A stretch of DNA of 64,000 nt from Reticulascus tulasneorum (taxonomy: Eukaryota > Ascomycota > Sordariomycetes > Glomerellales > Reticulascaceae). The stretch covers positions 62,001-126,000 of the forward strand of contig LSAX01000002.1 of NCBI GenBank assembly GCA_001557505.1, written 5' to 3'. Positions 7,977-55,785 of the stretch are shown here, piece by piece. The position numbers were made by a program, and so were the translations under genes. A model generated the notes under the pieces. The model did no database searches. It saw only the letters and a list, made by a program, of their open reading frames with translations, and had not been told where the DNA came from. How positions within the stretch are numbered: the stretch's first letter is position 1; each line of letters opens with the position of its first letter.

Positions 7977-9925
7977 ATGGGCAACGACGACAAGAACCAG
8001 TCACTTCACGACCTCAGCCTAGACCACCGCGCGTCCATTGTCTCGCAGCTCGTCGATATAGGCAGCGAACTTAACCAGCAACAGCATTTCAAGTTTCGCT
8101 CTTTCATCACAGGCCTAAAGTGCCTTTTTGTAGAAGGCACGCGGCTACGCCGCAAGTCTATCAACGCCTGCCGCGAGCAGCAGTACGTCGCGCTGTCCTA
8201 CACCTGGGAACCTTCAGAGTACAAAGACAAAGAACCAGGGCAGTATTTGGTCCAGAACTGGGATGACAACAGTTTCCAAGAGTCGCCGGTCCGGAAATGC
8301 GTACTCGACCGCGTCCTTCGCTACATGCGCTGCGAAAAGATCCGCATTCTCTGGATCGATGCTCATTGTATCCGCCAAGACACGTGCGGAGTCGTCCAGT
8401 GCACCCGCCATTCTACTTGTGTCCAGAAACGGGATGCCTTGCAGGCTATGGATCTTGTCTACCAGCTCAGCAAACACCCCGTTGCGCTGCTGGGCTGGCG
8501 GCTAACGCGAAACTCCGAGTTGCACCTCCTTGCACGGATCCTCTCGGGCACTCTTGTCGACAGCGACGGTCCCGGCGAATTTCGGCTCTCGACTGCAGCT
8601 GCTATTCACAAGGCCAGGGAGGCGCTAGGGCTGCTCTGCAGGATCACGCAGGACCGGTGGTGGAAACGTGCATGGACCTTCCAGGAGAATTACAAGGGCG
8701 GATCGCGGATGAAGCTACTAATCCTCCATAGCCAGGGGCTCGAGCTGCAGAAGCGGGGATATTCGGGATTCGGCGTGATACCGGGGGAGCTATGTATATC
8801 ATCCGTCACCTTCTCCATAGAGTCGACACGGCTGTGTCTAGCGCTCCGCAGAACGGCGAGATCACTGTCGTCGAGCGAAATGCAGGGGATCGGCGGCGTA
8901 CTCCAGGCGGCTGGGAGATATGCACTCATGCTGCACGAGTCGAGCTGTCTGACACCGACGGTAGTTGCCGACATTGAGGTGCGCGGCATGTCGAACACGT
9001 GGGACCGCCTCGCTCTCGTCGCCAACTGTTGCCAGTATCTAGTACGGCTGGACGGCGAAATGCTTTGTCAGCAACGTCATAGCCTTAGCCTATCAGTACT
9101 AGCCATGTGTCTACTCAACGGCGAGATACTGGATAATAGGAATAACGAAATGACATCGGTAGCTGGGCTGACGACATCGGCATTCTTAAAGGAGCGAATG
9201 TTCCGGGGATTCAACGCGCCGGAGGACGATGCCAGGCCGCTGACATTTAATAAGGGCTGCCGGCTGACGGACGTGGAACTGACAGCAGCCGGCCTGGCAG
9301 TGAGGGCCACTTGTGGAAGCTGGGCGGCATCATCGACACGTCGAAATTTGGGAAGTTACCTCGGATCAACGAACCAAGGGGCAGACTGACACTAGAACAG
9401 CGGAGGCATCTGCTGCAGCTCGCGATCTATCTATCCAACCAGAGTTACTGGCCGATCTCCAAACGGATCGACGAATACCTGAAAGCCGACACTGAATCCG
9501 GCAAACACTTCGCGTCCTTTACCGAAATGTATCTCCATCGTATGGCCGCCGAAATAGCGGATGCAATCCAGGCGGGCCAGATTTTGAGGCTAGGTAGCAT
9601 CTGGGACCCGACAAAAGGGCAGTTGCCGTACGGAGCCATCTTTGTGTGGTCTTGCGAAGGTGTCGAGAGCAAGTGGCCTTCAACATCGGATTTCGTCTTT
9701 ACGTCGGCGTGGCAGGGCGATTCAGGCTCGGATGAACACGATGCCAACGACATTGATCGCCATGTCTCAATACAGGTTGAGCTCGAGGGATTCCCAAGAA
9801 TCACTGGGATACCGCGCCTCCGCGTCCGCAACTGGCTGCTTGGTATCTGCTTCTTCAAGGGATGGCCGCGCATCAATGTTGTGTTTCCCTGGCCCCGAGC
9901 GCTGCTGGCCATCAAACCAGACTAG
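7977..9925 (+). pseudogene. HET (heterokaryon incompatibility) domain protein with a one-base frameshift
   Basis: The product would be about 650 residues from the ATG at 7977 (MGNDDKNQ). The HET domain is clear: YVALSYTW at residues 70-77, LWIDAHCIRQD at 125-135, a following MDLVYQLS segment and WWKRAWTFQEN further on. HET proteins trigger cell death on contact with an incompatible partner. At 9303-9306 the frame ends in the sequence AVRATCGSW, whereas the +1-shifted frame continues the family C-terminus (LWKLGGIIDTSKFG, GFPRITGIPRLRVRNW, CFFKGWPRINVVFPWPR) to the stop at 9925. The two frames meet in a run of three G (9304-9306), and one missing G explains the break. There is no room or signal for an intron. 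As written, translation stops at 9389 (470 residues), keeping the HET domain but losing the C-terminal 200 residues. Confidence 0.85.
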
Positions 9926-20518: not shown

Positions 20519-20881
20519 CTACCAACTTGTTGGATCGCAGAACGAAACTACAAGGGAAAAACCTTTATCGCTATGATAAGTAGCACCGCGATTCCATCCA
20601 TTCCAGCAACCAGATGAATTCAAGAGCCATTCAAACGTCCACCAGCAGTCTGCCTGGCTGGGGAAAGATCCCTCGACGATTACAACAGACCAACCGTACG
20701 GCTCATAAGAATTCACCATTCTCTGCCAATTATTGCAAATGTATTCTCGGGCCCGCCACATACCATCCCAGCTCTCGCAGCGACTGGGATATTTATTTAC
20801 AATAGTGCATTCGTGAGAGTCGCCCATTGTAGCAGGGATCACAAACGCTGCCAGAGCTATTGCCTTCCGAAAGAAATGCAT
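20519..20881 (-). CDS. Small cysteine-rich secreted protein
   Basis: A single exon of 120 residues. A signal peptide is clear (MHFFRKAIALAAFVIPATMG, cut near GDS). The mature chain of about 100 residues has six cysteines (in HECTI, SRCES, YICNN, ADCWW, SGCWN and SFCDP), so three disulphides are possible, and it is rich in tryptophan (eight Trp). I recognise no domain. Size, cysteines and secretion fit the broad class of fungal effector-like or antimicrobial proteins, but that is only a class. A TATA-like box (TATAAAG on the minus strand) lies near 21083-21089. Repeats lie about 140 bases beyond its 3' end and about 1.2 kb beyond its 5' end. Confidence 0.7.
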   Translation of the reverse strand: MHFFRKAIALAAFVIPATMGDSHECTIVNKYPSRCESWDGMWRAREYICNNWQRMVNSYEPYGWSVVIVEGSFPSQADCWWTFEWLLNSSGCWNGWNRGATYHSDKGFSLVVSFCDPTSW

Positions 20882-22130
20882 CTGTTATAACAGATCATTG
20901 TAAGGTTAGATTAAAGTTATCCATTTTGTCAAACACATGGGTCTCACTTACGGTGGATCAATTAGAAGCAGTATGCCTTAGAAAGCTATCACAGCGAATG
21001 CTTTGCTCTGGATACCAAGGCGCTGAAAATGGTTGTTGAGATATGAACTACATATTATTAGAGTGTTCTAAAGGCACTGGACCTTTATAGACATATGTTT
21101 TTGTGTACAAGCAGTAAGTACTCTACAAGCTTTTAGACAGCAAGCAAGTTACTGGCATGATGTGATGCGTGGCGTAGTTTATGTGCCATGACCTATTCCA
21201 CCATTGCGGGCGGATGACACCTAGGCGAATCAAATGAAAAGGCCTCGTAATATTAGCGAATCAATTGACGTTTTCAGAAAGGACCCCTAGGTTAACTGGA
21301 CATCCAGACATAATTGTAGCCTTGCCAAGGCCAGCTTACGAATGTAAGCTACAAATAAGCTATGTTGGTCAGCAAGATCCAGGCTGTAAAATGCAACTCC
21401 ATCAGACACTAAAGCCAATTCCCAAGGCTGCGGTGTATAATCCCCATATACATGTGGTGTAATTAGTGTACGTAACCATGAACTATACCGCAATTGCTAA
21501 CATGTGGCGCGTAGGTACATCGTAATATTAGCGAATCATTTACAGTTTTCGGAAACCGCATCTTGAGTAACCAGACTTCCGAGCATTATTTTGGCCTGCT
21601 GCTGTAAATGCTGACGCCCTGTTAATCCGCTGCGAGGCGTGCCAGGATTCCCAACCGTCGTGAACAGCCGTTAGTCGGGGGATGCATCCTCTCAAACATC
21701 GGTGATAGACTTTCCACAGTTTGTATAATGACCACTGCAGCGGTCTACAACCCTCCAGGTGTAGCGCGATTGGTTCAACCTTTAATAATACGTCGGTGAG
21801 TGCCGGCAGGGTAACGGCCGTTGTGCCCGGTGGTGGCTGTGTCCGGGAGCCAGAGAACTGCATACCGTCCGTCGTTCACAACATGTTTCTTGCGATTGGT
21901 GGCGCCTCTTATCAATTCAATGGCTCTTTTTGCCACCAGTATCAATTATCTTTAATAGACAAAATTACACTTACATATGGATATCACATAGTCATGGTTA
22001 AGTAGCTTACTCCATAGCATGGCTCACCAGGGGTAGAAAACATTATTCTACCTATTTACGGTGCCACGATAATCGTATAGAGATCTATTGGCGGTTCTAT
22101 TAGACGGCTTATAGACATCATTGCTCCTAT
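20882..22130. other. Intergenic with short repeats
   Basis: Contains a 19-base exact repeat, TCGTAATATTAGCGAATCA, at 21245-21263 and 21520-21538, each followed by a similar TTTTC(A/G)GAAA sequence. No gene seen. Confidence 0.5.
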
Positions 22131-22506: not shown

Positions 22507-25500
22507 CTAGATAAGCATGCACCTCAAGCGGTACCCAGGGTAATTCAGCCTGACAGACTGTATCCCGCCACGCGATTCCTCGGGGAAATCGTCTATCGAG
22601 GTTGAAATACGAGGTCAGCCGATCCCACAAAGAGTAAGGCCACAGGCGAGATAGGAAAGTCTGGGGAGGGGAGGAGCGCATAGGACTCACAGCACTGGCC
22701 TAGGTTGCCTTCAAGGGGAAATCGCGGACCAGTCGCCGTCCCTACAACTGCGCTTGCAGTTATGAAAGCGCCGCCGAAGGCGATGAAATTATCATTAATC
22801 CAGCATTGGCATCCCGGATTGTTGCCTTTGCACGTGGCACCACCCTGGAGATTGTAGAAACCCCGACAACCGCCCTGATCACACCAGGTCACGGAACTGC
22901 AACCAGTGTTCGGGGGGCTGCATTGGCAGCCCCGGTGGTTGCCCTGGCAGCGGTGTACGCCGTCGCCTTCGCGGATGCCGTTACAGCCGTTGTTACTGCA
23001 GCTTTGCGGGGGGCCGCAGAGCGCCGGGTGCGGGTCACAGCGACAACCAACCCAACTCCCGGAACAGACGCCCTGATTGTTCTGCCACTGCCCGTGGCAG
23101 TTGTTAACGTTGCAAGGCTGTCTGGGACCGCAAAGGGCCTCGTGAGGGTTACATCGGCAGCCGACATAGTTACCAGTACACACGCCCTGGTTATTGATCC
23201 ACTGGCCAAAGCAGTCGTTGGCATTGCAAGGCTGTCGGGTACCACAGAGGGCCTCGTGCGGGTTGCAGCGACAGCCCTCAAAGTTGCCTGTACAGACACC
23301 TTGGTTGTTTCTCCACTGGCCGTCGCAGCCACCCGCGTCACAGGACTCTCGGGTACCACAAAGGGCATCGTGTGGATTGCAGCGGCAGCCGGCCCAGTTG
23401 CCCGTACATACGCCCTGGTTGTCTGCGCCCCATTGACCGTTACACCCGACATCACCGCAGGATGCTCGAGGGCCGCAGAGGTCGGCGTGGGGGGTGCAGC
23501 GGCATCCGGCACGGGTCCCGGTACAGATGCCCTGGTTATCTGGTCCCCACGCGCCGTTACAGCCGCCGGCATTACATGCTTGTTGGGCGCCACACATCGC
23601 CGGCGTGGGATTGCATCGGCATGGGGCAAAGCTCCCGGTGCAAACTCCCTGGCCGTTGATCATCTGCCCATTGCAGCCTGCCGCGGCACATGAACCCATG
23701 GCGCCGCAAAGGGCCTCGTGGGGGATACAGCGACAGCCGGCCCAGTTGCCCGTACACACGCCCTGGCTGTCTGCGCCCCATTGACCGTTACAACCTCCAC
23801 CCCCACAGGACCCCTGAGTACCGCAGAGACCAGGGTGGGGGGTGCAGCGGCAGCCGGCACGGGCCCCGGTACAGATGCCCTGGTTATCTGGTCCCCACGC
23901 ACCGTTACAGCCGGTGGCGTCGCAAGACTGCTGATTACCGCACATAGCTGTGGTGGGGAGGCAGCGGCATCCTAAGAGACCTGTGGTCTTGCAAGTTGCC
24001 GCCCCGTTTGAATCGAAGGCGGCACTATTGCAAGCGGCATCACCACAAGAGGGCGGGCTTTGAGGGCAAATAACCGGTAGTGGTCCCGCTGTAGTCGTGC
24101 TGGTGGTGGATTGTGCGGACGTTGAGCTCGTCGGTGACCCTGTGGTGATTGTGCTTAAGGTCGAAGCCGTGGTGGTGGAGACCGATGTCGTGGTTGTGTC
24201 CCCGCAGGCATCTTGGCTGTTATCCAGCGACCTGAAAACACTCAGTCTCCATCCAGCGCCGCATAGGGCGCTGGGATCGCCTGCACACGGCACATTACAT
24301 TCCGATCTTGGTCGGAGGGCAGCCGTAATGCTGTTACCGCAGAAGCAGTCAGCACCGTACTCAACGCCGAAGTATTGGGATCCACAGCACAGCTCCGCAC
24401 ACTTGAGGACCGTCATAAAGTTATCCGGTCCGTGTCTCTCGCCTGTAAGTGACCGCGTCTCGGAATCCATGTGGCAACCAGAAAATTCCCAGCCATCCGG
24501 AGCCGAGACCTCGTCTATCATCACGTCCGTGTCTCGCCAAACATTGAGCCTCCACCCCCCGCCGCAAGTCTCGGAGCTATTTCCTGTGCACGGCGTAGCA
24601 CACTCTTCCAGCGCCGCAGAGAAGCCCGGGACGTCCAGCTCGTCGCCGCATAAGCATTCGTCCCCGTTCTCCAAACCGAAATAACGCCATCCTTCGCACA
24701 GCACCGCGCATGTCGCCGCCGTCAAGCTTATTTGCCCCGTGTGCATCTCACCAACGAGGGTACGAGTTTCCGAATCTCGGACACAGCCTAGATGGGACCA
24801 ACCGTCACCCACAGTACCTGTATTGACCCTGAAACGCGTATTTTCGTAGACTTGAAGTGCCCAGTGTCCACCACAGAGCCATGCTCTGTCGGCAGTACAA
24901 GGGTGGTTGCACCTATCACTTTCCAGGCGACTATGTGCCTCATTCGGAGGAGGATAGGTGGAGCCGCTATCGCAATAGCATTCACCGCCAGCTTCAACAC
25001 CAGCCCATTTGTTGTCGATGCACTCTTGCCCACACTGTTCAGGTGTAAAGCCATACCCCTTAAAGATCGCCATCAGCCGGGGTCTATCCTCGTCTTGGTA
25101 GCATCCGTGGTGAGCCCAGTCGCTCTGCGAGGGATACCAGGGGAAAGAAGCAAAACCGCTCGTCGTGTACAGTGTCAGGCGGCGTGAACCGCCACACAAG
25201 GTACCGTCTACGCAGACGGAATTGCACTCGGCTTGACTCCTTTGCTCTGGAGTCAAGACGCTGGTGTCAAAGCTATTCGAACAGTAACAAATGCTAAGAG
25301 GGAGTTTGGCGTTAGAGCTGGTGCTGGACTCATAGGCAGTGGTATTAAACGCATTGGGGCGGCAAGGCCTTGGGATTAGGAGACAGATGAACTCACTTCT
25401 CTCGCACGCCAAACGCCACAGGATAATCATATCTCTTCGATGTTCTACAGACCATCTCGCAGTTGGATAGGCCGTAGGCGCCTTGAAGCCAAGGGTCACC

Positions 25501-28500
25501 AAGAATGTCTCTATGTGCGCCCGTAGACACCCAGCAGCCGGCATGTATGTATGGGCCAATATCATTAGGGGTAGGAGTGCCGATGCAATCCGTATTGGCG
25601 ACAAGGAACGACCTTCCATTGGAATCACGGACGAGCGGGCGAACCTCCAGTGGCGGTCGCGTCGTAGGGGGGTTCTTGGGGTCGCAGGGCACGTAGTCGT
25701 ATGTCCCTATAACTGGCACCATGTCCGGGTCACCGAAATCCGTCGCAAACGCGGCCACGCGTTTGACGAAAGCCTTGACCACTTGCGGCCATAGGTTGAT
25801 GGCTGTAGAGTCCATGTCCAGTATATTTGCGATATCGGGCCGTGAGACATAGTTAGCGATGAGTCCAGACACGTAGGCTGCCGAAAATGAGACGCCGTTG
25901 CTAATAAAGTATCCACCATTCCTATGGAGACTGAGAATTCTAAGACCGGGAGCGAAGACGGTGGTAATTTGGCGATAGTCACCTGAGGGTATTTGTCGAT
26001 GCCCCTGGGAATTACTACCCCCAACCACAATAAGGGCGCCAGCACCGACGCGGCCTGGCCGAGCCCATCGAATAGGCGTCCAGTTGTCAATAACCTCGTC
26101 GCCAGCTTCAGTGTTAGAGGTGGCACAGACTACGATGATACCAGCGTCGTTGAGTGGAGCAAGGAGAGCACGCCACACGTCGCTAACTTCTACGGGGGAC
26201 ATCCCGTAAGGGTTATGAAAAGAACCGAATAAGGAGCCCGAGGAAAAGTTGATAATAGATCGCTTAGATGCAGTCGCACCCGCCGATCCCACATGGGACA
26301 GGATCCACTGCAGACCTTGGAACAGTTTGTGGGCATAAGCTATCTCCATCCAATTATCCACGTATTTGACGGGAATGATCGTGACCGCCTTCGAGGTACC
26401 TGCGACGTGGCCACCTGCACAGCTAGCCATGCTCGTTCCATGGCCTGTCGAGCCGAGGTACCATGTGGTTAGCAAGCAGACTCTACGCTTCATGGTGCAG
26501 GGTTTGTAGCATACCATGGAGATCCCCAAGCCCCTGGATAGTTCCCACGGCCTCGAAATGGTCCGTGACCCGATACTTGAATTTGCTGTGGAACCATTCC
26601 TAGAGAAAATTCGTCAGCGCTTGGAATCAACCGCTTCTGTCGGTCTAGAAACAAAGGAAATACGCACGGGGTGGTTCGCGACTATGCCCGAATCCAGAAT
26701 ATAAATTCGCGACGAAGAGCCACTGTCGGGGTTGGACACATAACCGTCGTAGTTGTTGAACGTCTGGGCTTGGAACAGTGGGGGCCTGGCAAGATAATCA
26801 AGACCCCAAATGTCATTTCCATTCTCTTGGTTCAGTTGTAGCCGTAGTTCCTGGCGTGAGTCTTGTCGCTTGTTCAAAGAGCTTCCGCTGTGGTTGCCGA
26901 TGCCTGCGCTGCGCTCAAGCGTGACTGCAGCCGACCGCTTTATGGCAGTGCTGTTGTCGGCAACCTGCCGATCCTGCAGCTGTTCGCCGTTATCTGGGGG
27001 GGCGTCCGGCTCCAGAGGGTTGGTAGGCTCTGGATCGATGCTCCATTTATTTTCCCAGCTAATACCCAATACTTGCCCATCACGGCTTGCCAAATCAGCA
27101 CCCCACTCAGCTGTTAACCATGTCGAAACGCCCATCACGTTGGTACCTGGGTACATCGGCCATACCATCATCGGGTATGGATGCTGTGGGATCGAGTTGA
27201 CCATAGCGCGGAACCCGTTCTGTGTGCCCTGGTACATCACAAGTGCCGGGAAGAGCCTCCTCCTGAGGAGGTTACTTAGGTCCTGCTCTATAACCTCTTT
27301 GATCGCCTGGTAGCCCCGCGTTTTGGGATGGAAGGCTTTCATGAGCGACCCGCGCGTCCAAAGGATAGGGTCGCCGAGCCACTCCGGAGGGGCCGAACCT
27401 TCCTGAATAGTCTGCTGAATCCCACACCAAAGCACGAGTCCTAGCTCCTCCCCCATGGTGGTGTTGGGATTGCCCAGGACGGCCTCGCACTCTTCGGGGG
27501 TAAGGTTGATCGGGGGCTGCAATGGGCCCTCTGGTACATCTGGGCTGCCGATAAGGAAAATCCATTCATGGGGGTCGGTTCCTGGAGCTCTGTCGACCCA
27601 GTCGCAGAATCGATGCCCGTCAAATAAGGTGTTTGCATCAATATATCGTACCCTCTCAAACCCTTGCTGTGTATTAACAATAAGGATCGCCTCTCGGATT
27701 TTTTGGTTCATCATGTCAACAAGCTCGTTCATCTGTTCTCGTAGTAACTGGGTTAAAGTCCCGCAGTCCCGGTCGCTACCCCCGATCTTTAAGCTCCACT
27801 TTTCGCAAGGCGTTCTCACTTCAAAAAACCGAATATACGCTAAGCAACCAAGAGTCAGAGCTAATAACAACGTAGTTCCACAACTAATTCCTAGCCGCGT
27901 TTTGCTGCCTTATGCTAGAGGATAACATACCAACAACATGAAGCATAAGATACCGAGCTTCCCCTTTCCTGTTGAATAAGGTCTCAACGATGGTTGTATA
28001 GGCTCTAACCAGCTCCGGGGTTATTGTCTGTAGTCGGTTCCTAGCAGCGGCTATCTCGGTAGCACAAGTCCCATAGACACAATACAAGCAAGCCTTGACT
28101 ACGTCGGCAAAACCTGCGTCGTTGCCTCCAATCGTGATAGTTGCATACTGGTAGACACGAAGCGGCTCTTTTAAGATGAACGCCAGCTGGCTGCCGGGAC
28201 CATCGATGACATTAGAGATAAGGTCCCCAGTGCAAGCGACGAAATCAAATCTGTGAGAAGGCGTGGTCGATAAGAACCGTGACAGGTCAAGTTGGGCGGG
28301 AAAGGACCCAGTTGCGCGATAGCAGGGTCCGCTTTGTTGTAATCCGGCGCCGATTCCCGCGGAAAATGAATCACCAAATGCTACCCACGCGTCTTTGACA
28401 AATGGGGCGGCTCGCCCCAGGATTTCGGGTTGCGGAGACGGTTCGTGTTGAGCTGGTACGAGATGGGCCAAAAAGGCACCAACCCCTAAGAGGAGCCGCA

Positions 28501-28510
28501 GTCTGTACAT
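22507..28510 (-). CDS. Giant secreted multidomain protein: SGNH hydrolase - subtilisin - 4 WSC - 11 Cys6 repeats
   Basis: Six exons join in phase with a total of 5574 coding bases (1857 residues): 28510-27931, 27839-26668, 26599-26515, 26444-25397, 25293-22691 and 22592-22507. Domains in order are as follows. Signal peptide 1-20. SGNH/GDSL hydrolase about 40-385 (GDS with Ser48, GGND with Asn130, FHP with His364). Linker with dibasic sites at 494-495 and 516-517. Subtilisin about 535-810 with Asp576 (YILDSG), His614 (GHGTSMA) and Ser798 (NGVSFSAA, Ala where Pro is usual). Four WSC modules (about 905-1005, 1022-1112, 1128-1215 and 1229-1315). Thr/Ser linker to 1366. Eleven Cys6 repeats 1371-1797. 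A C-terminal cap. Esterase plus protease on a glycan-binding stalk suggests attack on, or anchoring to, cell-wall glycoprotein; that role is inferred. Two genes falsely joined is the alternative, but phases and motifs run through every junction. Confidence 0.85.
22788..24068 (-). repeat. Eleven tandem 38-39-residue cysteine-rich coding repeats
   Basis: Each unit has six cysteines spaced C-x5-C-x4-C-x(9-11)-C-x5-C-x-C, with the consensus core CNGQW, NQGVCTGN and GCRCNPH. The first (residues 1371-1412) and last two units (1721-1797) are divergent, while units 2-9 are close. Units 2, 3, 4 and 5, 6, 7 correspond one to one (both 2 and 5 read CNGAWGPDNQGICTG; both 3 and 6 carry VCTGNWAGCRC), pointing to duplication of a three-unit block of about 348 bases. 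Confidence 0.92.
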
Positions 28511-44090: not shown

Positions 44091-45449
44091 TCATCTCTCC
44101 TTCGTCGCCACTGGGATTTCAGCAGCCAAGTGTTGGGACACTGAATCAGCTGCAAATAATACTTGGGGTTCTGAAAGGACTTCTTCCTCTGCCAACACGG
44201 CCCGTAAGGCGTCTCCGGATAGTAATAGTACACCGTGCTCTTTGTTCATAGGTAGCAACGGTCTTCGCGGCGTTTCGCTATGTCCCAGGACGATGTGAAC
44301 TAACAGCTTCAACCCTGCAATCTGGCACCTGTCAGAGTACTTCCACAGAGACCTATCAGGGCAGCACTCACTCCAATCTTTTGACAAGCACCGTCAGCCA
44401 GTGCCAGTAGGCCTTGTAGCCTTTGTGCTTCTCGGTATTCGACTGTGCCTGGAATAGAACTACAGAGTTCCCATAGTCTCGCGCATGTCCTCTAAGGAAG
44501 AGATTTGAGCAAATAAGAGAAGAGAAGAAAGACAAACACATACAGGCACGATATTAGGAAGCCCTGAGATTGCCTAGATGAGCAGTCTGGTATTAGTCGC
44601 GGGCTGGGGAAAAAGGTATGCGGCCAAGACGACTTACCCCAGCGGCTCCACTTGCGATTGACGGAAGGAGAATATCAATGAAACCGTCTATGATTCGAAA
44701 TTCATCGTCTGGCCGCCGACGTGGGTATTTCTGACCAAAGGCTGGACTTGACACCACTGCGTTGATCCTTGTTATCTTGCCAACGGAGGCACATCTTCTC
44801 CTTGTTAGCGCGTGACTTGCACTTGAGGAATAGAGAACAATAGAGAAAAGGAGGAAAATCGATATGGCGAACGGAAATCAGTAACACACGTAAGCTTGAC
44901 CCCAACGACATTCGCGGACGCCTTCACCACGTCAACGATCATCTCGCTATCGAGGTCAATACCCCCTGAAACTGCGGGGAAATTATACAAGACAACCGGC
45001 AGCGGGCTCGCCTCGGCCACATCCACGAAGAAACCCATCAGGGCGTCTCGTCCAGTTGCCCCCATCAACTGGCCGGCGTAGTACCCTGGCGGCAGGACCA
45101 TGGCATAGTCAGCTCCGGCGGCATATGCGTCGCGAGCTAGTTGAATAGTCTCCCGCGTACTCGGGGCGCCGACGCCAGCTACTACGGGAACATGGCCAAA
45201 CTCGCTGCCCAAGGTGTCGAGAGCTTCTCGGGCCGTCTTCAACAACTGAATCCGTTCATCACGGGTCAGGTGTGGGGCTTCTCCGGCCGAGCCTGCAACA
45301 ACGGGGATTGTACCGGCGGCAGCGATATGGCGGACGTGGATTGCGAAGGCGCCGAGGTCGAGATCTTCGTTGGCCTGGAAGAAGGTCGGCAGGGGGGTGT
45401 AAATCCCCTTTGGCAACGGGCGGTGTGCATTTGATGCCATGATGGTCAA
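44091..45449 (-). CDS. Dihydrodipicolinate synthase / N-acetylneuraminate lyase family aldolase
   Basis: Five exons join in phase: 45449-44890, 44794-44638, 44573-44544, 44491-44368 and 44314-44091, giving 364 residues. The TIM-barrel family marks are all present: GIYTPLPTFF, IPVVAGSAGEAPHLTRDER, VVAGVGAPSTRETI, MVLPPGYYAG, then VVLYNFPAVSG with catalytic Tyr155 and VGVKLT with the Schiff-base Lys185. Later exons give FRIIDGFIDILLPSIASGAAG, AISGLPNIVP and the terminal PRRPLLPM. Family members cleave or form 2-keto acids via a lysine imine. Fungal versions include 4-hydroxy-2-oxoglutarate and 2-keto-3-deoxy-sugar-acid aldolases, and the exact substrate cannot be read here. The 30-base third exon and the GTGCTG donor of exon 4 are the least certain parts. 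It lies tail-on behind the permease gene and may or may not belong to that group. Confidence 0.85.
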
Positions 45450-46617
45450 TGGGGACGTAAAGCGCTGGTAGTTAGCATTCGTTGAGATTGAACGATTCAG
45501 CGATGTTTAGTCTGGAAGGATTATATGAACGGTTAGCATTGTTGTTTCGCGGATGATACCTAATAGGGGATACAGCTGGGCATCCACATATCCGTTTGCC
45601 AATCACCGTCACCGAGGCGCCGAATGTATCGCCGAGCTAGCTCCAGGACCCACTGAAGAACTGTTACTTTCCATATACAGGCGTTTCAGTCATAGGCTTT
45701 CACCGAGATATCTACCATCATTCCCGTGTTGTTACGTACCGAGACCCAATACACTGACGACTGCCACCCGATTTTCTCCATCCCGTTATCTTTACTACAT
45801 GGCTCATTGGCAATGTAGCCTGACCAAGTTCTAGACCTACCTGTCCCGCACTGGACCGGAGAGAACAGTGGTCGAGGATCACGCAGGCAGCTAGCAAAGC
45901 CAATCATGGTTATCGGGACCTCTGCTCTGTAGCTATACCTCGGACGTTATTCACGCCTTGCAAAATTGTCAGTTATAGCTACTCGGGGATGCCATCGTCG
46001 TTACCCATTTCCTCCGCTCGATTTGCCGCTGTTGCTTCCCTCGCCTCTGTCTCCTAGTCTACCATTCTCAATGTAGCCTCTGCTGGCCTGCCTCATCTAA
46101 GAAGTTGCTATAATCGTTGAGTTCCAAATACTATCATCGTCGTCATATCCTTCTTCGTCGGTAGTGGCCCTTCATGAACAGTTTGGACCGAATCCAATCT
46201 GAGGGCTCTTCGGTCGCCGTAGCTTAAAGCTCGCAAAGTCATAATATTGCCCCTGAAACTTCGTGTCAGGACAATGGTCCTTTCCAGTAATATCTGTCGA
46301 AGCGTGACTCGTCGAAAAGCTGTCCCAGGCCTATTGAGTCCCTAGGCGTGTAACCCATCTGTGGTTCCAGGTAGGGCCACGTGATTTTCAAACTCGAATG
46401 CGGAATATTGGCAAACATGTTAAATTCTACGAAAGAGACGCGGAAAGGAGAGAATCATCAATTACTTCGACTGCGCCAAAAGTGTCAGACCAGCAGACCT
46501 GTGTACCTCTGACAATTGTATTTCGTGCGACATCGAAGTCTTGAGTCGGATATCTACCTATAGCCATGGCATCCCCCCAAGTGATAGCTAGCAACCGAAA
46601 GCGTTTCCTCCTTACCT
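45450..46617. other. Intergenic between aldolase and permease genes
   Basis: Contains the 5' flank of the aldolase gene and the 3' flank of the permease gene. Open frames (45553-45834 plus, 45686-45907 minus) have no recognisable content. Confidence 0.45.
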
Positions 46618-48369
46618 TTATAGAGTATAGCGGTAGAGGGGCGAGTACTCTTCCATGCTGCTTAGCTCCTCGGATGTATTCTCTGCGAGAATCTTGGACT
46701 CGTCTAAAGCGTCCCTCTTCTTATTCTCGCGCCTCATTAGCCACCAATGCACCGTCGCCGGAATCATCGCGCCAAGAACCGTCGCGCCAACGGAAAAGCC
46801 AAATCCCAAGGGGTACCGAGGCGCCTGCTCCTGCAGATAGATGTTAGATCCGATGCCGCCGCCACCAACTGACCCGAATAACATGAGAAAACCTATAGAT
46901 GCGGCTCGCTTTGACGGGTTGGGGATGTTGTTGGACGTCCACGCCCCGACGATGGGCGCCTGTGCGCTGTATCCGGCGGCGGCGATGAATATGGCAAAGT
47001 ATGACACGCCGCTGATTTGCGGATAGTGCACTGTGACCCAAAGAATGACGATCCCCGCGAGGCCAACTGCATAGCAGGTCATGATGGAAGCATAACGTCT
47101 CTGCGTCCGGTCGCTCATCCAGCCGTTAAATACGCACACGACCGTGGCGAAGATGTACGGCGGCGTGGTGAGTGCCTGCGCCTGGATGGCCGAGTAACCC
47201 AGGTTGCGGACCATGGTGGGCAATGTGTATGACAGAGAATACGTGGGAATCGAGCCTCCCCACCAGAACATCATCATCATGAGCCATGTCTTGCGGTCCT
47301 TGGTCGCGGCCCAGATATCGTCCCAGCGGAACTCATAAGTAGGAGCGTTGGGCCCGGTGGCGTACTTCACGCGCAGCTTGGCGTACTCGAGCTCGTCGGG
47401 GGTGAGCCACTTGGTCGTGCGCTTCTCGTTGTATTGATGAGGGAAGTGGCTGGACATCAAGTTAGCCCAGTGTCCGTAACCGAGGCATGGGCCTTGCTTA
47501 CGGCAGGAAGAGGAAAGTCATCAGGCCGATGGCTACTGTGATTATACCCTCAATGAGGAAAAGCCACTGCCATGCGGTGTATCCGTGGGCTCCATCTATA
47601 TGACCGACGCCGTAGGCAATAACGCCAGAGAAGGCACCGGCCGCAGTGTTGGCTCCGTAGAAGATAGCCATACGGGTGGCCAGCTCACGCGGCGTATACC
47701 ACATGCTCAGGATGAAGTAAGAACCCGGATACAATCCAGCCTCGGACACTCCGAGTGCAAGCCGGACCGCGACGAAGCCGCCGAAGCTGCGTACTAGGCA
47801 GGTCAAGGTGGTGATCGTACCCCAGGTCACTACAATGATAGGGAACCATATCTTGGGACCCAGACGCCGCAGCAAGATGTTAGACACGGGTTCCCAAAGC
47901 CCGTAACTGAAGAAGAAGACCATGAGTCCGAGGTTGAACTGAGTGGGCGTCATGTTGGCGTCTTCAGCAAAGCCAAAGATACGAGCGTTACCAGCATTGG
48001 ATCTTAGCTAGGGTTAACGAAGGCGTCTTCGGATTCGCTTCCTGAACAGGGTGGTTGGTACATACCGGTCGAGAGAGCAGAGCAGATAGAGCACACTCAA
48101 TGTGGGCAGCAGACGCCAGTCGACTGGTGCAAGGTCAGTGATGTTGTGTCCTGAAGGACAATGGTGAACCTACGTTTCCGCAGAAGCCTCTTCTTCCCCT
48201 CGCCTTCGAATTGTCGGTGCAGATCCAGATACCGCTCGTACCCGGGATTTGCAGGCTCAGCATGGCCTTCCGAGACACTGGTTTTCTCCGAGGCTAGGGA
48301 CCGGTCCAGCACGTTTTTCTCAACATCGACCGCCTCGGCGGCATTCTGGCTGTAGGAGCTCGTAGTCAT
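46618..48369 (-). CDS. MFS transporter, anion:cation symporter (allantoate-permease-like)
   Basis: Four exons in phase: 48369-48174, 48123-48066, 48002-47502 and 47449-46618, giving 528 residues. The hydrophilic N-terminus (with a KRLLRK anchor) leads into LDWRLLPTLSVLYLLCSLDR and SNAGNARIFGF, the classical start of fungal ACS-family permeases (Dal5/Tna1 type). Then come WEPVSNILLRRLGPKIW, VRLALGVSEAGLYPGSYF, YTPRELATRMAIFYGANTAA, the central loop and a second six-helix half (PYIFATVVCVFNGWMSD, FAIFIAAAGYSAQAPIVGAW, SKRAASIGFLMLFGSVGG). Such proteins import organic anions with protons across the plasma membrane. It is divergent from the TauD-type dioxygenase with 642 bases between the starts, so uptake of a sulfonate is a reasonable inference. 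Confidence 0.88.
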
Positions 48370-49011
48370 GGCTCGATTGTAGGATGATAGAGAGCAGACT
48401 GAGAATATATTTGGTCGCTCTCGTAGAAGGTCAGTGCTAAGGTCAGAGTCATCAGAGTCATCACCTCATCTGGGTCATGATCGACTTTATGGACATTTAC
48501 GATGCATGTGTTGATCCCATAAATCGAGCAACCCAATGATAACCTCTCTATATCTGCTTGCTCCTATTGCGGAGAATATGCGTCGACGCTGGAGCCCAAA
48601 AGACGCTAAAGCAGACGCCGAGGCTGGGATAAGATAAATGGGGATGATAACAGCAGCTCGGTGCTTCGGCGCTACACGAGTCAGCTACCTAGCTCGGCGC
48701 TGATACCATTAAATTGACAGTGGATAGCGTTTGAGCTTTTCCTTCGGCGCTTCGGCGTGAAAATCTCAACCAATGATACAGGTGCCGTGCGATGTTGAAT
48801 GGCCTGCCACTACATTCGCCGCCGGCGGGATGGGACGCATTACCCTCTTGCTTGGCTAGCTGTACATATTGATGGAGAGGCTTATAAGTTGAGGCAATGA
48901 TATTAAGGCTCTTTTTCTGATAACTCATCTCGACCACGAGATAAACAATCGTGCCATCCGATTACCGTCTTCGCATCTCTCCAAGACTCGTGACAGTCAA
49001 TTCTCGCCGCC
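48370..49011. promoter_or_regulatory. Bidirectional promoter region of permease and dioxygenase genes
   Basis: 642 bases between two divergent start codons. It contains near-direct repeats (TCAGAGTCATCAGAGTCATC at 48450-48469 and GGCGCTTCGGCG-type repeats at 48664-48672 and 48745-48757). No exact regulator site is assigned. Confidence 0.45.
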
Positions 49012-50213
49012 ATGACTCCTGCGGCCACAACCACGGCAAGATCTATCCCTACAGAACCACCCACTACAAAGACTCTCGCCACAAAGCTCGTCACCAGAGC
49101 TAAAAATGAAGATGGTTCGGCTCTCTACCCAGACTACCTCCCATTTTACGACCCCCTAGAGAAGGTCAAAGATATAGGAGAGTTCGAGCACCTCGACCCA
49201 GGTCACAAGGCCGACCCCACGCTTCCCAGCCTTCTCGCCCGCGCCACAAAGATCACCGATCTCTCCCCCCACGTGGGCACTGAGATTGAGGGTGTCCAAC
49301 TGTCGCAGCTTTCTGCGGCTGGGCTCGATGAACTGGCGTTGATGGCTGCGAAGCGCGGCGCTCTGGTCTTCCGCAACCAGGACTTTGGCAGTATCGGCTT
49401 CGAGCAGCAGAAGCAAATAGTCCGGCATTTTGGGCCGCTTCACGTCCACGGGTGGGCGCCGCATCCCATGGCAGGGTCCGAGGAGCACATGATCATATAT
49501 GATCACAAGGAAGATCTCCGTGTGCGGCGGTCTTGGAGGGGACGCAGCCCGGTGCAGTGGCACACGGATCAGTCGCCTGAGGCGCAGACGCCCGGGACTT
49601 CATTCATCTGTATGCTTGAATCGCCCGCCACGGCAGGCGGAGATACCCTTGTCAGCTCAAGCGTACAGGCTTTCAAGTCTTTGTCTCCGAGGTTCCGCAA
49701 GCGTTTGGAGGGATTGACCGCGATCCACTCCAACGACGACGGGGTCTCCCAGGAGCTGAAGAATGGCCATGACGCTGTCATGCGCAGGGCTCTGCTGGTG
49801 CAAGAGCACCCCGTTGTCATTGTTCATCCTGTTACCAAGGAAAAGGCACTCTGTAAGTCATGTCACACCTTGCATTCTCTGCGCATCTAACATACGTAGA
49901 CGTGAACCCTGTATACACCAAGAAGATCGTGGGCTTCGACCAAGAGGAGTCGGACTACCTCCTCGGATTCCTTTTCGACCATATTGCCAAGCGGCAGGAT
50001 TTCCAGTGTCGCGTACGCTACGAGACCGGCACTGTTCTCGTCTGGGACCAGCGGGTGACGAACCACTCGCAGACCCTGGATTATCCAGCCGGAGACAGGC
50101 GTCATGCCTTCAGATTGACCCCGATAGCGAATAAACCGATTCCCTCCAAGATTGAGGAAGAGGACGGCGAGTGTGAGAAGGACTATGGGCGGGCCTCACT
50201 GGGACTTTGCTAA
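49012..50213 (+). CDS. TauD-type alpha-ketoglutarate-dependent (taurine/sulfonate) dioxygenase
   Basis: Two exons in phase, 49012-49852 and 49900-50213 (GTAAGT donor, 47-nt intron), giving 384 residues. The facial triad is visible: WHTD with His184 and Asp186, and NHSQ with His336. The 2-oxoglutarate-binding Arg is in HAFRLTP (Arg352). Around them are ALVFRNQDF, HFGPLHVHGWAPHP, the substrate-side SPEAQTPGTSFICMLESP, GGDTLVSSSVQAF and VNPVYTKKIVGF. Fungal homologues (Jlp1-like) hydroxylate sulfonates such as taurine so that sulfite is released for sulfur nutrition. Related clades act on 2,4-D or other acids, so the substrate is inferred. Its neighbours are a divergent ACS permease and a convergent Zn2Cys6 regulator ending 56 bases away. 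Confidence 0.88.
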
Positions 50214-50268
50214 TTAAACGATAACGGTTGTATATACTATAGTCTGTACAGCAAACATGGTCGTTCTA

Positions 50269-52471
50269 TCAGAATGTGAATAAAAATTCATTTGAAAACT
50301 CGGGGGTTTGCCAGTGTTCATTTTGCCAATGCCTCCAACCGTCGAGCATCTCTTCTGTGCTGCCGAGGATGCTCTGGCTGTTTTCGTGATTTTCCGGCTG
50401 ACGTGAAAGCGGAAGTGGGTTCGAGGAAGCTTCCACAACAGAATGGGGTTGCTCATTCTGCGTGTTGAGCCCGGGCATTGCCACCAGGCACTCATTCTGT
50501 GTGAACTGTCCGGGCGTGTAACGCCGTGCATAATCACTGGAATCAACAATGTTGGATTCCTCTGGGGCATCATCAAATACTCCACGAGACGTTGCGAGAG
50601 TTTCGTCTCGTCTGATCTCGTTTCTTGCCAATCTCACGCGATCGGGGTTAGGTACTGGAGGAGAGTTTATTCGGGTGGACTTCGCAAAGAAGTGTAGGAT
50701 AGACTCCGCATTGGGCCAAAGCCCAGCAAGGCTTTTCAACGAAACCAGCGCCGAGTCATACCTCCTAAGAGCAGAAATAGCTAGCAAAGGGTTGGGGAGT
50801 CGGATCTCGGTGCTGAGTTGTATCAACGCAGTGAAGAGGCAATTGATGGTCGACATCCAAAGACACTTCAGGCTTTCTGCCTCGCAAAGGGTCAGAAAGA
50901 GTGATTGGATGACGCCTGCTGCAGCCACGCAAATTTCGTTATTCTCGTCATGTCTTTGGCCATCAGCCGCGGGCCGGGCACCTGGCCGCGGCAATGATCG
51001 GTGGAATAGTATCAGGACGGTGCTGTAATGTAGATGCAAGTTGGCGCACCAGGCATCCGAGTGCGATGTGTTATGGAGCTGAAGTTGTTGTGGGAGTCGC
51101 AAAGTCCAGCCTGCGAGCCTTTCATCGGTTTGCGTCACGGCCGAGACAAGTGCTTCAGGTGTTGAGGAGCGAGAACGAGCTCGCAAGGCCTCAGACACTA
51201 TGACGGCCAAGTGCGACATCTGCATCATGTAATCAGGTCTGGCAGTGTCTCCGCAGTCCTCAAAGTCAGAGTACTTGAGCCTCTGCACATTGCAGTCTTC
51301 TAGATGGATGGATTGCGGCCTGCCATACTGGAGGGAGATCCAGACGTCACTCTGGAAGAGAAGCCACCAAACGCGCCGCCACATGCGCTTGTTGTGAGCA
51401 ACGAGGGTGCTACCGTCTGCGTCGCGATGCATGCCTAGACCCATCGCTGTGCGACCGGCCACGCCCAGCCAGAACCAGGCATTTGCCGTGACATCCTCAA
51501 GACCACCAGCGTGCCAGGTCAAGAGCAAGGCAGCCTGGACGATAGTATCGCGGTTACGCTCGAAGCCCGCGTCAAGGAGGCTCTTGGCCCGTCTGTAGAA
51601 AGAAAGCTTGCACGAGTCGCGCTTCTCCCGGTCACGGTAGTACAGCACGTGTGCGCCAACGACTAGAATGGCATGCAGTAATAGTAGCGAGGGAGGGTTC
51701 GACGGGTCCTTGGCGCGATATTGCTGGACGAATATGCGCTCGTCAACGACGGGGAAGCCCGGGTTTACATGATGAAAGTACGCGTCAATGAGCTCGTCGA
51801 CCAGGACCCTCGGAGGTAGCTGGAACGCGTCGAGGGGAAGGCGGTCGGCAGAGCCGTGAGAAGCATGGTGTCGTGATATGCGGTTAGTCGGGTAATGGCA
51901 AACGTCGTGAGCGCGGGCTTGGGCGCCAAACTGGTGGCGCACCAGAAAGTTGATGTTCGACACGTCCGTGCCAATGTAGGTCATGCGAGCTTTGCTGTCG
52001 ATGGGCCGGTCGACGAGCTCCGGCTGGTCAATGAACTCGACGAGATGGCGCTTATAGAAATACTCGCCGTCTTCGGCAGCATGGATGTCAACGCCAGCAA
52101 CGCCTGCTGATGCGGGGGTCGACTGGGTGGACTGATGCTCCTCAATCCCAGGCAACAAAGGCGAGGATGCCACGGGGACAGCAATTGAGAGGTTCTCCGC
52201 CGGCTCGGCTTCGCATGGAGAGTGAGCCGTCGCTGACTTGGAGACGCGCTTGCGTTTTTGGTGGATGCGACAGTCGTCCTCTTTCGAGGCGAGCCTGCAA
52301 TTGGAGCAAGGGAGGCCGACATCGTGGGCGTCGCATTTGACTTTTCGCTGGTGACAGGCCGTGCAAGCCGCTCGATCTGTGTCTTGTGTGTAAGATGCCG
52401 GATGCCCGAGATGTACCGTGGAAAACATGGATTTACTCACTAGCTGCCTGGGCCCGTGTGATTCTTTGCAT
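50269..52471 (-). CDS. Zn2Cys6 transcription factor with fungal-specific regulatory domain
   Basis: Preferred model: exon 1 52471-52441 and exon 2 52382-50269, intron 58 nt with a GTGAGT donor, 714 residues starting MQRITRAQAA. The alternative is an unspliced start at 52428 (MFSTVHLG). The zinc cluster CTACHQRKVKCDAHDVGLPC, then SNC and later DDC, is followed by a basic QKRKRVSKS linker. The middle homology region is typical: LVDELIDAYFHHVNPGFPVV, LLLHAILVVGAHVLYY, FYRRAKSLLDAGFERNRDTI, AALLLTWHAGG, WFWLGVAGRTAMGLGMHRD and RRVWWLLFQSDVWISLQYGR. This resembles cutinase-type regulators (CTF1-like family). Its gene is tail-to-tail with the dioxygenase gene, so it is the obvious candidate regulator of the permease/dioxygenase pair; this is inferred from position only. 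Confidence 0.85.
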
Positions 52472-53520
52472 GGTGGCCAAGTCCAATGTCACTTTGTTGA
52501 TTGTGACCAAAAGCATTTGTATAGATCAGCCATCCCACCATCTTTCGGTGCTTAATGAAATGAACAAGCAAGAGAGGCCAAGATGATCGACCGCCGAGGC
52601 GATTGCGAGCAGGTCCCAATGTCTCGACTTGTCGCCTTGGTTTTCCTTCGAGCCCCTCGGGTGGAGATTCTGTTGACCAAGACTAGCCCATGCGATCCCA
52701 CTTGGCGCCAGTACAGCTTTGGACGATGCTAATGAATAAAGGAGCCACAGATAAGACGTTGCCCGTTTGCCGATAGCATTCCATCTCCACACCTTATCGC
52801 CCGCTCCACGCCGACCCACCGTCCCGTCGCCACGAGTCATGGAAAACTGCTATACCGACGACGAGCCTCATTTAAATTAGACAGACACATGCCTCGGTGC
52901 ATGGGCAGACGGTCTTCTATCTGACGAATTCCTGCAGATGTCAACCTTGGGCCAGCTGTGAGATGACTTGAACGGTGATTCTTAAAACTGGCAGTTTTCG
53001 GAAACGGAAATCAGCTTGAAATTCTACGTGAATCTCAACTTATTAAATCGGTCTCGCCTGCTGCAGAGCAGACCACACCAGTCCCGCCGGTGAAGTCGCC
53101 GGTGCCAACCCTCTAGTTACACGTACTCGCAGCAGACCCAATGATGGGTCAATGGCTCATCTGCGCGGACGCCAGATCACAACGCCTGGCAGTACTCCTA
53201 CAGGGACCACGACCCGAAACGAGCGCGGCTGACCAGATATGAGCGCCTCGGTCACATGTACGGTTTTAGTCCTTCATAGAATTGTAGAGACCAATCAAGT
53301 TATCCTTATTTAATATCGGAAGCGGTTATATTTGAATTGGAGTCGACTACAGTAGGCATTTGATCAGACGATGTTAATTATAGCTACTGACGATTCTGTA
53401 CCAAGAGAAAATATACAGGAGAAGTAATGGATGGGAAGTTCTACAAACCATGTTTTCCTTCGGAGTTCATCTTGCTTTGCTTCGCGATCAGGAGCACCAG
53501 CAGCGGTCTTGCAAGATTTG
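52472..53520. other. Intergenic between regulator and amidohydrolase genes
   Basis: 5' flank of the regulator and 3' flank of the amidohydrolase. A minus-strand frame (52526-52840) has no recognisable content. Confidence 0.45.
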
Positions 53521-54777
53521 TCAAACATCACCAGGATAAATTGGCACATATTCGACACCGCCGTTCCAAACCCTCGCAATATCCATTGTCTTTGAGATGT
53601 TCCGTAGTGGATTACTCCCCGGCTTGAGTAGTATTAGATCCGCGCGATATCCCTCTCGGATAGACCCTCGCCCTATCAAATTATGCCAGATACTAGGTAT
53701 CACCGTCGCGGCCCTTAGGACATCAACCTCACTCATGCCTGCCTCTTTCAGATAATGTAACTCGCGATGTAGAGTAATGCCAATATAATCATCTTCGATA
53801 AAGCTATTAGCAATGTCAATGGCGTCCGTTCCGGCGAGAATCGGAACGCCCGCACGCACCAGCCGTTGTACACTGGTCACTCCAGCTTCGTATGACAAGC
53901 TCACTCCGCCGGCAAGGATCGATTCGAGGGTCGCATTCCCGGCGACAATCTCGCCGATGTTGAGCGTCGGCGTCACATATTGCCCTTGTCGTTTTATGCG
54001 TTGGGCCATCTCCTCCGTCAGCGGAATGTCGAACGGCACGTGTTGGAGACCGTTGGTTTTGGAGCGGATCGCGACTTCATACGAGGCGTAGTCTTGGGCG
54101 TGGGTCATAGAGACCTTACCTAGCGCATGTGTCGCACTGACAAGCGCGTTATGGGTCGCCTGGTTGAAGCCGTCGGGCTCCGAGATGACTTTCATGTAAT
54201 CGGAGCTATTTCCAAAGACACCAGCTACGAACTGCTGTGCTTGAGACGGCGAGTACACCAAGCCTTGAGACGCGAACGCCGTGGCATGCGTGCTATTCGG
54301 TGCAACGGCGCCTTCTCCCGCGCTGAAGTAGGATGTCAATCCAACTTGGTCACGGAGGGCGGCGCACAACGTGTAATTTGAGCAGCCCATATTCATGGCA
54401 GTGGTTACACCGTATTTGCTCAGGGTCGCAAGGCTGGCCAACGAGCTGACGTGAATATGGCTATCGATCAACCCCGGGAGCAGGACGCCGCCCTTCCCAT
54501 CGATGGCATTTTGTACGCCGCGGGGATCGAAAGTTATGCTGTCCCCATCGATCACCACAGTACTGGGTTCACCGATGCGCCACCCGTCGAAGACACGGAC
54601 GTTTGTAAGGGCTGTTTTGCCTGCTGGTGGTGGAATCTGACTCCGGGCTGAAAGTAATTTTAGTTGCGTCTCAACGTAGGAGACATCCCTTTCCTGCCGT
54701 GCTTGATGACCTGAGAGGCAACCATCCACAGACGGGTATAGCAGAGCTGTGAGGACTATGTAGATGATTGGCTGCAT
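53521..54777 (-). CDS. Secreted amidohydrolase-superfamily protein
   Basis: A single exon of 418 residues. An N-terminal signal peptide (MQPIIYIVLTALLYPSVDG) precedes a KR-poor region and the amidohydrolase fold: TNVRVFDGWRIGEPSTVVID, then GVLLPGLIDSHIHV with metal ligands His107 and His109, GVTTAMNMG, MTHAQD and LQHVPFD carrying candidate metal/substrate histidines, VPILAGTDA with the conserved Asp, and AATVIPSIWHNLIGRGSI plus GYRADLILL, the conserved C-terminal strand. Such enzymes hydrolyse amide or related bonds in imidazolone-, dipeptide- or hydantoin-like substrates. Secreted fungal members are poorly characterised. A TATA-like run (TATATA, 54941-54946) lies about 165 bases upstream. 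A role with the sulfonate module next door is possible but unsupported. Confidence 0.85.
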   Translation of the reverse strand: MQPIIYIVLTALLYPSVDGCLSGHQARQERDVSYVETQLKLLSARSQIPPPAGKTALTNVRVFDGWRIGEPSTVVIDGDSITFDPRGVQNAIDGKGGVLLPGLIDSHIHVSSLASLATLSKYGVTTAMNMGCSNYTLCAALRDQVGLTSYFSAGEGAVAPNSTHATAFASQGLVYSPSQAQQFVAGVFGNSSDYMKVISEPDGFNQATHNALVSATHALGKVSMTHAQDYASYEVAIRSKTNGLQHVPFDIPLTEEMAQRIKRQGQYVTPTLNIGEIVAGNATLESILAGGVSLSYEAGVTSVQRLVRAGVPILAGTDAIDIANSFIEDDYIGITLHRELHYLKEAGMSEVDVLRAATVIPSIWHNLIGRGSIREGYRADLILLKPGSNPLRNISKTMDIARVWNGGVEYVPIYPGDV

Positions 54778-55785
54778 GACGAATTCGAATAGCTTAGTAT
54801 TGAAAAGAGATATAATTTTGTAACAAAGTATGTAAGCTTGCTGTTGTCAAGCCCTTTTGACGTTATAGAATAGAGTGACGGAAAACTCAAGTATAATAAT
54901 GAATGCTGTAGACTCGGTTTCATGTCGAACTCTATGGCTTTATATACCTATGGTCATCGACACCTTATTATAATCGTGTAGTACTTTTATAACTGTATCA
55001 TTTCTCGTAACTCCTTTACCCTTGACTCGCCGCAGGCTGACTTGCATTCGGCTTCCTTAAGTCACATCCGCCCATTCGCTCCATAAAAACGGGCAAGGCC
55101 AGGCGAGGTCCCGCTTATTAATATATAAAGCGGTACCCACATACAAGGAAGAAGCTAGCTTGACATAGTTGTACATACGAATCAGCCAATTAGATCCGCT
55201 GGAGATACTCACCCCTACCTAAAATACCTACTTGCAACTACGGCGAAACTCACGATAGTGCGAAATGACGATATAGAAGGCTGTGTTTATGAGGCGCCAG
55301 TCTAGGTGCTCCAAGTTCCATTCCAATAATGGAAACATAGGGACAGGATGCGTAATGCTTCGGCGTGTTCGGTGATTATCACTAGCCTGTGCCGTGGGGC
55401 CTGTCCTTACGAGCCCTCCAATCCAACACTGGTAACAACTCTCGAAATTCTAAAGAGGCCGAAACGATTGCACGAAACCCTCAAGGATGGCCACATTTCT
55501 TGCTAGCAAGTGCCTCCCCAAACGCCGGTTCATCCGTCATCGTGCCGATGATCTACAAATGTCCGTACGAGCGGACTAACATCAGCATGTTCAAAGTCTG
55601 GGAACAGAGCTAGACAAGGGTTGGGCAGCAGTCCGATCTTGCTTGGGAGTGCGCCGAGAATATATATATGGGTATCTATTATCCCCGAGACTTTGGTCTC
55701 GAACGCTTCCATTTTTCGAATATTATACATCCCTGTATCGCGTTGCAAATTCGCGTGCCTACTGACTTAATTCCCATTGTTCAAA
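54778..55785. other. Divergent intergenic region
   Basis: Between two divergent genes (amidohydrolase minus, RTA1-like plus). No gene supported; a 74-codon plus frame at 55389 is probably random. Confidence 0.45.

Follow-up and report, generated by a model that had tools for sequence, protein, structure and literature searches.

The locus analyzed here raises the question of whether two enzymes of different catalytic classes, an SGNH hydrolase and a subtilase, are encoded as one secreted chain in Reticulascus tulasneorum and, if so, whether that chain stays whole. The window (the entire stretch of 64,000 nucleotides examined) belongs to a genome of 42.8 Mb in 35 contigs, and the gene is situated some 85 kb into contig C2. 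The gene occupies 22593..28510 on the minus strand, as do all of its features given below, and five exons (28510-27931, 27839-26668, 26599-26515, 26444-25397, and 25293-22593) join into an open frame of 1861 amino acids from start codon to stop. The four GT-AG introns between them (91, 68, 70, and 103 nt) are secure; intron 1 (27930-27840) interrupts the SGNH domain, introns 2 and 3 lie inside the S8 domain, and intron 4 lies inside the first WSC domain. The initial annotation had proposed five introns and 1857 codons. Its first four introns stand, in frame, while the fifth is only possible, as the four-intron frame is open without it and ends in a stop codon (22593-22595). Pairing a GTGAGT donor at 22690 with an acceptor ending at 22593 would, as calculated from the coordinates, give 1857 codons and a stop at 22507-22509; this five-intron model is feasible, though not required, and the last few dozen residues, within the C-terminal tail of the four-intron model (22596..22802, which contains the possible donor), could differ.

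From its N-terminus, the predicted protein begins with a hydrophobic stretch typical of a signal peptide (residues 1-21, 28448..28510; hydropathy maximum 2.17, cleavage place by eye), followed by the SGNH hydrolase (residues about 41-364, 27331..28390, with intron 1 inside). The latter is matched by the Pfam family Lipase_GDSL (PF00657; E 1.1e-6, 29.4 bits versus a cut-off of 23.6), scores under the cut-off for Lipase_GDSL_2 (PF13472; 27.7 versus 32.9), and has PDB relatives in 5mal and 4hyq. It presents the Ser of a GDS motif (S48, 28369-28367), the Asn of a GGND motif (N130, 28123-28121), and a C-terminal His (H364, 27330-27328). A spacer (residues about 392-468, 27016..27246), kept in all seven aligned rows, and a dibasic site (K517-R518, then Q519; 26866..26871) precede the S8 subtilase (residues about 531-860, 25702..26829, with introns 2 and 3 inside), which is matched by Peptidase_S8 at E 1.6e-14 (54.3 bits versus a cut-off of 21.8). 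Translation and alignment place both catalytic sets where they had been annotated at the outset, with D576 (26694-26692), H614 (26442-26440), and S798 (25890-25888) forming the S8 triad, and the oxyanion residue N723 (26115-26113) completes the S8 set. Between the two enzymes there is no second hydrophobic stretch (maximum 0.65 versus 2.17 at the N-terminus); therefore, the S8 domain would rely on the N-terminal signal. Beyond it stand four WSC domains (residues about 912-1318, 24225..25548, with intron 4 in the first; four Pfam stretches, E 4e-46, 155.6 bits, above cut-off), a Thr/Ser-rich linker evident from the sequence (residues about 1328-1370, 24069..24197), and eleven six-Cys repeats (residues 1371-1792, 22803..24068). 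Pfam, sequence, and hydropathy thus agree with the WSC modules, linker, and signal-type N-terminus proposed earlier, and the number of repeats is likewise borne out: the pattern matches ten, a degenerate eleventh precedes them, and residues 1371-1792 hold 66 Cys, or 11 x 6.

The SGNH His and the S8 Asp both fall inside one open exon (ORF 26614-27909), so the joining of the two enzymes is no splicing artefact. Two further SGNH-S8 copies in the same genome, L042 on contig C3 and L041 on contig C34, also carry the stretch from SGNH His to S8 Asp in a single open exon, and the C3 copy has counterparts of all four window introns at equal places and phases, with one more inside S8. The window copy is the only stop-free copy among the three: in the C3 copy an in-frame TAG falls within the WSC region, and in the C34 copy there are a TAG in WSC, a TGA in S8, and an apparent frame break in the first exon. 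The stops could mean either that parts of the chain are dispensable in those copies or that the assembly or sequencing contains errors. The S8 part stands apart within its own genome, with a best S8-only match of E 1.5e-8 compared to 1.2e-52 for the C34 copy. At least 98 Peptidase_S8 (PF00082) matches, counted exon by exon, mark the genome as rich in subtilases.

The same domain order was sought in other organisms by three protein searches, each scoring 7997 to 8000 candidates sharing most words. The first matched a Collariella sp. protein (P0001) and a protein from Apiospora (P0002) in which FG-GAP repeats accompany SGNH; the second matched a metagenomic ORF (P0003) and an Aspergillus GH71-SGNH protein; and a four-sequence profile search matched 47 proteins, among which a Podospora aff. 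communis protein (P0005) has a Pfam S8 domain and two metagenomic ORFs, P0003 and P0006, extend as far as the start of S8. The other 44 of the 47 show no S8 domain in the domain table, and the sequences of four of them (P0007-P0010) were inspected. The Collariella protein (1626 aa) aligns over 97% of residues 1-1000 at 29% identity (E 8.9e-84), and the Podospora protein (1266 aa) over 98% of residues 1-883 at 35% identity (profile E 1.1e-195). Both have SGNH, S8, and WSC in the order of the window gene, with six-Cys repeats present in the former and absent from the latter. The layout is found in these two proteins and in part in the two metagenomic ORFs, which run from SGNH through to the S8 Asp motif and end just beyond it, at the place of the second intron of the window gene. 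In P0006, the SGNH domain is preceded by an additional stretch rich in Cys and by a Ser/Thr linker. Rather than always being separate genes, SGNH and S8 are joined in all four of these sequences and in the two other genome copies, and the reading of the locus as one gene agrees with both the single-exon junction and the co-linear proteins of Collariella and Podospora.

A tree built from 14 SGNH rows places the C3 copy with Collariella (98/94), a grouping that suggests the family already comprised two lines before these fungi split. The same tree does not decide on a single origin of the SGNH-S8 fusion, requiring two changes, with one change in 24% of bootstrap trees. A stand-alone SGNH gene on contig C3 (L053) groups in this tree with a Gaeumannomyces avenae protein (P0007; 100/99).

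Catalytic residues were compared in a seven-row alignment of the window protein and six others. S48 and N130 are kept in 6/6 rows reaching them, H364 and D576 in 7/7, and H614, N723, and S798 in 4/4 rows spanning them. Identity to the window protein is 31-35% for five of the six other rows and 40-49% for the decayed C34 copy, and retention of the residues at 31-35% identity is what selection on both predicted activities would leave. The linker ahead of S8, on the other hand, is poorly conserved except for one dibasic [KR]R site, which lies 54-65 residues ahead of the S8 Asp in all six members tested (the C34 copy was left out). The site reads NKR followed by Q in the window protein, RR followed by Q in P0003, P0005, and the C3 copy, KR followed by I in P0001, and KR followed by D in P0006; the decayed C34 copy has PR followed by Q. 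When the linkers were shuffled, none of 20000 sets reached dibasic sites in 6/6 members, in a test that ignores common descent.

These patterns bear on the proposal, made in the initial annotation, that both enzymes are tethered to one stalk. The order of SGNH, spacer, dibasic site, and S8 makes release of the SGNH enzyme likelier, and because the site between the two enzymes is kept in all six members tested, the SGNH arm is more likely cut off during secretion. We consider it reasonably probable that the gene encodes one secreted two-enzyme precursor that is cut at [KR]R into a soluble SGNH esterase and a tail-bearing S8 protease. The whole chain would enter the secretory pathway, and the candidate site would be cut by Kex2, which is specific for dibasic sites, or by the S8 protease itself. 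The esterase would then leave with the spacer in soluble form, and the protease alone would keep the WSC/six-Cys tail, by which it could sit on polysaccharide, in contrast to a stalk shared by both enzymes. Equal amounts of the two would arrive at the same wall or substrate, where the protease may digest glycoprotein and the esterase may remove acyl groups nearby. Only tentatively do we go further and suggest a subtilase zymogen that has the active esterase as its N-terminal arm, such that one dibasic cut would both free the esterase and activate the tail-held protease in an equal, joint release. The spacer may have an inhibitory role.

It is also important to note the evidence against the use of this cut. 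The site could have been inherited in 6/6 members without being used, the residue after it is I in P0001 and D in P0006 instead of Q, the C34 copy has PR, and the stops in two of the three genome copies count against the precursor reading. If the site is not used, the chain would stay whole as a bifunctional esterase and protease on one wall-binding tail. We regard this as rather unlikely: the layout is shared by the Collariella and Podospora proteins and both predicted activities look intact, but a dibasic site conserved 6/6 in an otherwise variable linker speaks against it, and cutting at KR is common in secreted fungal precursors. It is less probable still that the SGNH arm serves chiefly as an outsized pro-region, helping the S8 zymogen to fold, shielding it, or inhibiting it, with the arm's own catalysis of little importance. 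The arm does stand at the place of a propeptide, with the conserved spacer ahead of the cut site; however, its catalytic residues are all retained wherever a row extends to them, and related SGNH domains are found by themselves or joined to GH71 or other domains. The merging of two genes by a wrong gene model or assembly, for which the existence of SGNH-only relatives (P0007 and L053) could be cited, is rejected as extremely improbable, given a junction inside one exon in three copies and two metagenomic ORFs and co-linear proteins in two other genera.

The spacer, which the precursor reading would release with the esterase, shows a motif order resembling that of the subtilisin I9 propeptide at the pattern level only. 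Pfam found no I9 match in five pieces, and a five-row profile run against the PDB matched only titin (E 0.39). When a spacer profile was compared with seven I9 pieces of the same genome, 39 of 200 shuffles were as good, and when the seven family rows were compared with the I9 pieces, shuffles were as good in 3 of 100 cases in local mode, which is suggestive, and in 95 of 100 in global mode. A plain HMM search with the spacer reached six of the seven I9 pieces at E 0.17 to 1. With Pfam, PDB, and most profile tests negative, identity of the spacer with an I9 propeptide is not claimed.

Thirteen other places in the genome also carry the six-Cys array (28 matches at 14 loci including the window gene), and 12 of these places were fetched. 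No Pfam family covers the array, and a PDB search with 383 of its 422 residues gave nothing below E 0.1. The repeats follow the pattern CGxxxSCxxxxCxG...CxGxxxGCxC (L043-L052; window 22803-24068). Two of the 13 other arrays belong to the SGNH-S8 copies, two (L046 and L050) come after a GH88-like domain whose score falls short of the Pfam cut-off, and approximately six form array-only proteins with a short head and a Ser/Thr linker (L043-L045, L047-L049). Ten ORFs neighboring the SGNH-S8 gene belong to ordinary families and give no hint of a cluster with it. Elsewhere in the window (44805-54846), adjoining genes for DHDPS, an MFS protein, a TauD dioxygenase, a Zn2Cys6 regulator, and an amidohydrolase look like a small catabolic cluster, and a short ORF rich in Cys and Trp (20519-20884), possibly with a signal peptide, lies approximately 1.6 kb downstream of the SGNH-S8 gene.

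The significance of these findings is that they define an unnamed, conserved family in which a single precursor unites two classes of enzyme and carries its own candidate cut site. Such a family makes it possible to ask directly whether wall-attacking activities that are linked are delivered by fungi in a single chain. A further pointer is the six-Cys repeat module, which lacks annotation and recurs elsewhere in the genome. As had been noted from the start, the layout has no named family, none being present in Pfam, NCBIfam, or the open-licence literature searched; that literature gave no paper combining an SGNH hydrolase with a WSC domain, with or without a subtilisin or peptidase S8.

Among known systems, proteinase K-like subtilases (PDB 1s2n, 8gko, and 1ic6) share the order of the Asp/His/Ser triad and oxyanion Asn, and the family profile matches 8gko at E 5.1e-21. 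In contrast to these enzymes, the window protein shows an SGNH enzyme and a dibasic site at the position where a propeptide would normally start, has no I9 match, and carries GVSFSA rather than GTSMA as its Ser motif. The best solved relatives of the SGNH domain are the bacterial SGNH lipase 5mal (E 1.3e-14) and the phospholipase A1 4hyq (E 7.4e-14), both single-enzyme proteins of approximately 235 aa, and the match (residues about 42-205) covers only the N-terminal half of the window domain. SGNH domains of like kind, with the HRFC and FHPK motifs, are also fused to another secreted hydrolase in the Aspergillus GH71-SGNH proteins P0004 and P0009 (both annotated as mutanase), which differ in that the partner belongs to an alpha-1,3-glucanase family and SGNH is C-terminal; in addition, one Nemania protein joins a like-kind SGNH to a fungal lectin domain. 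Because such domains are joined to GH71 and lectin partners, SGNH may act as a helper to its partner, stripping off acyl groups or lipids. WSC domains are described as carbohydrate-binding in PMC4237727, where they are treated as a family separate from subtilisin. They are described as PAN/Apple folds with four disulphides in PMC13094651; the WSC-AA5_1 copper radical oxidases presented there resemble the window protein in having WSC attached to a secreted fungal enzyme and differ in being single enzymes with WSC at the N-terminus. On the sequences compared, the SGNH-S8 family is a real, conserved, and unnamed fungal domain layout, whose predicted parts are of known kinds and whose combination with a candidate cut site is new.
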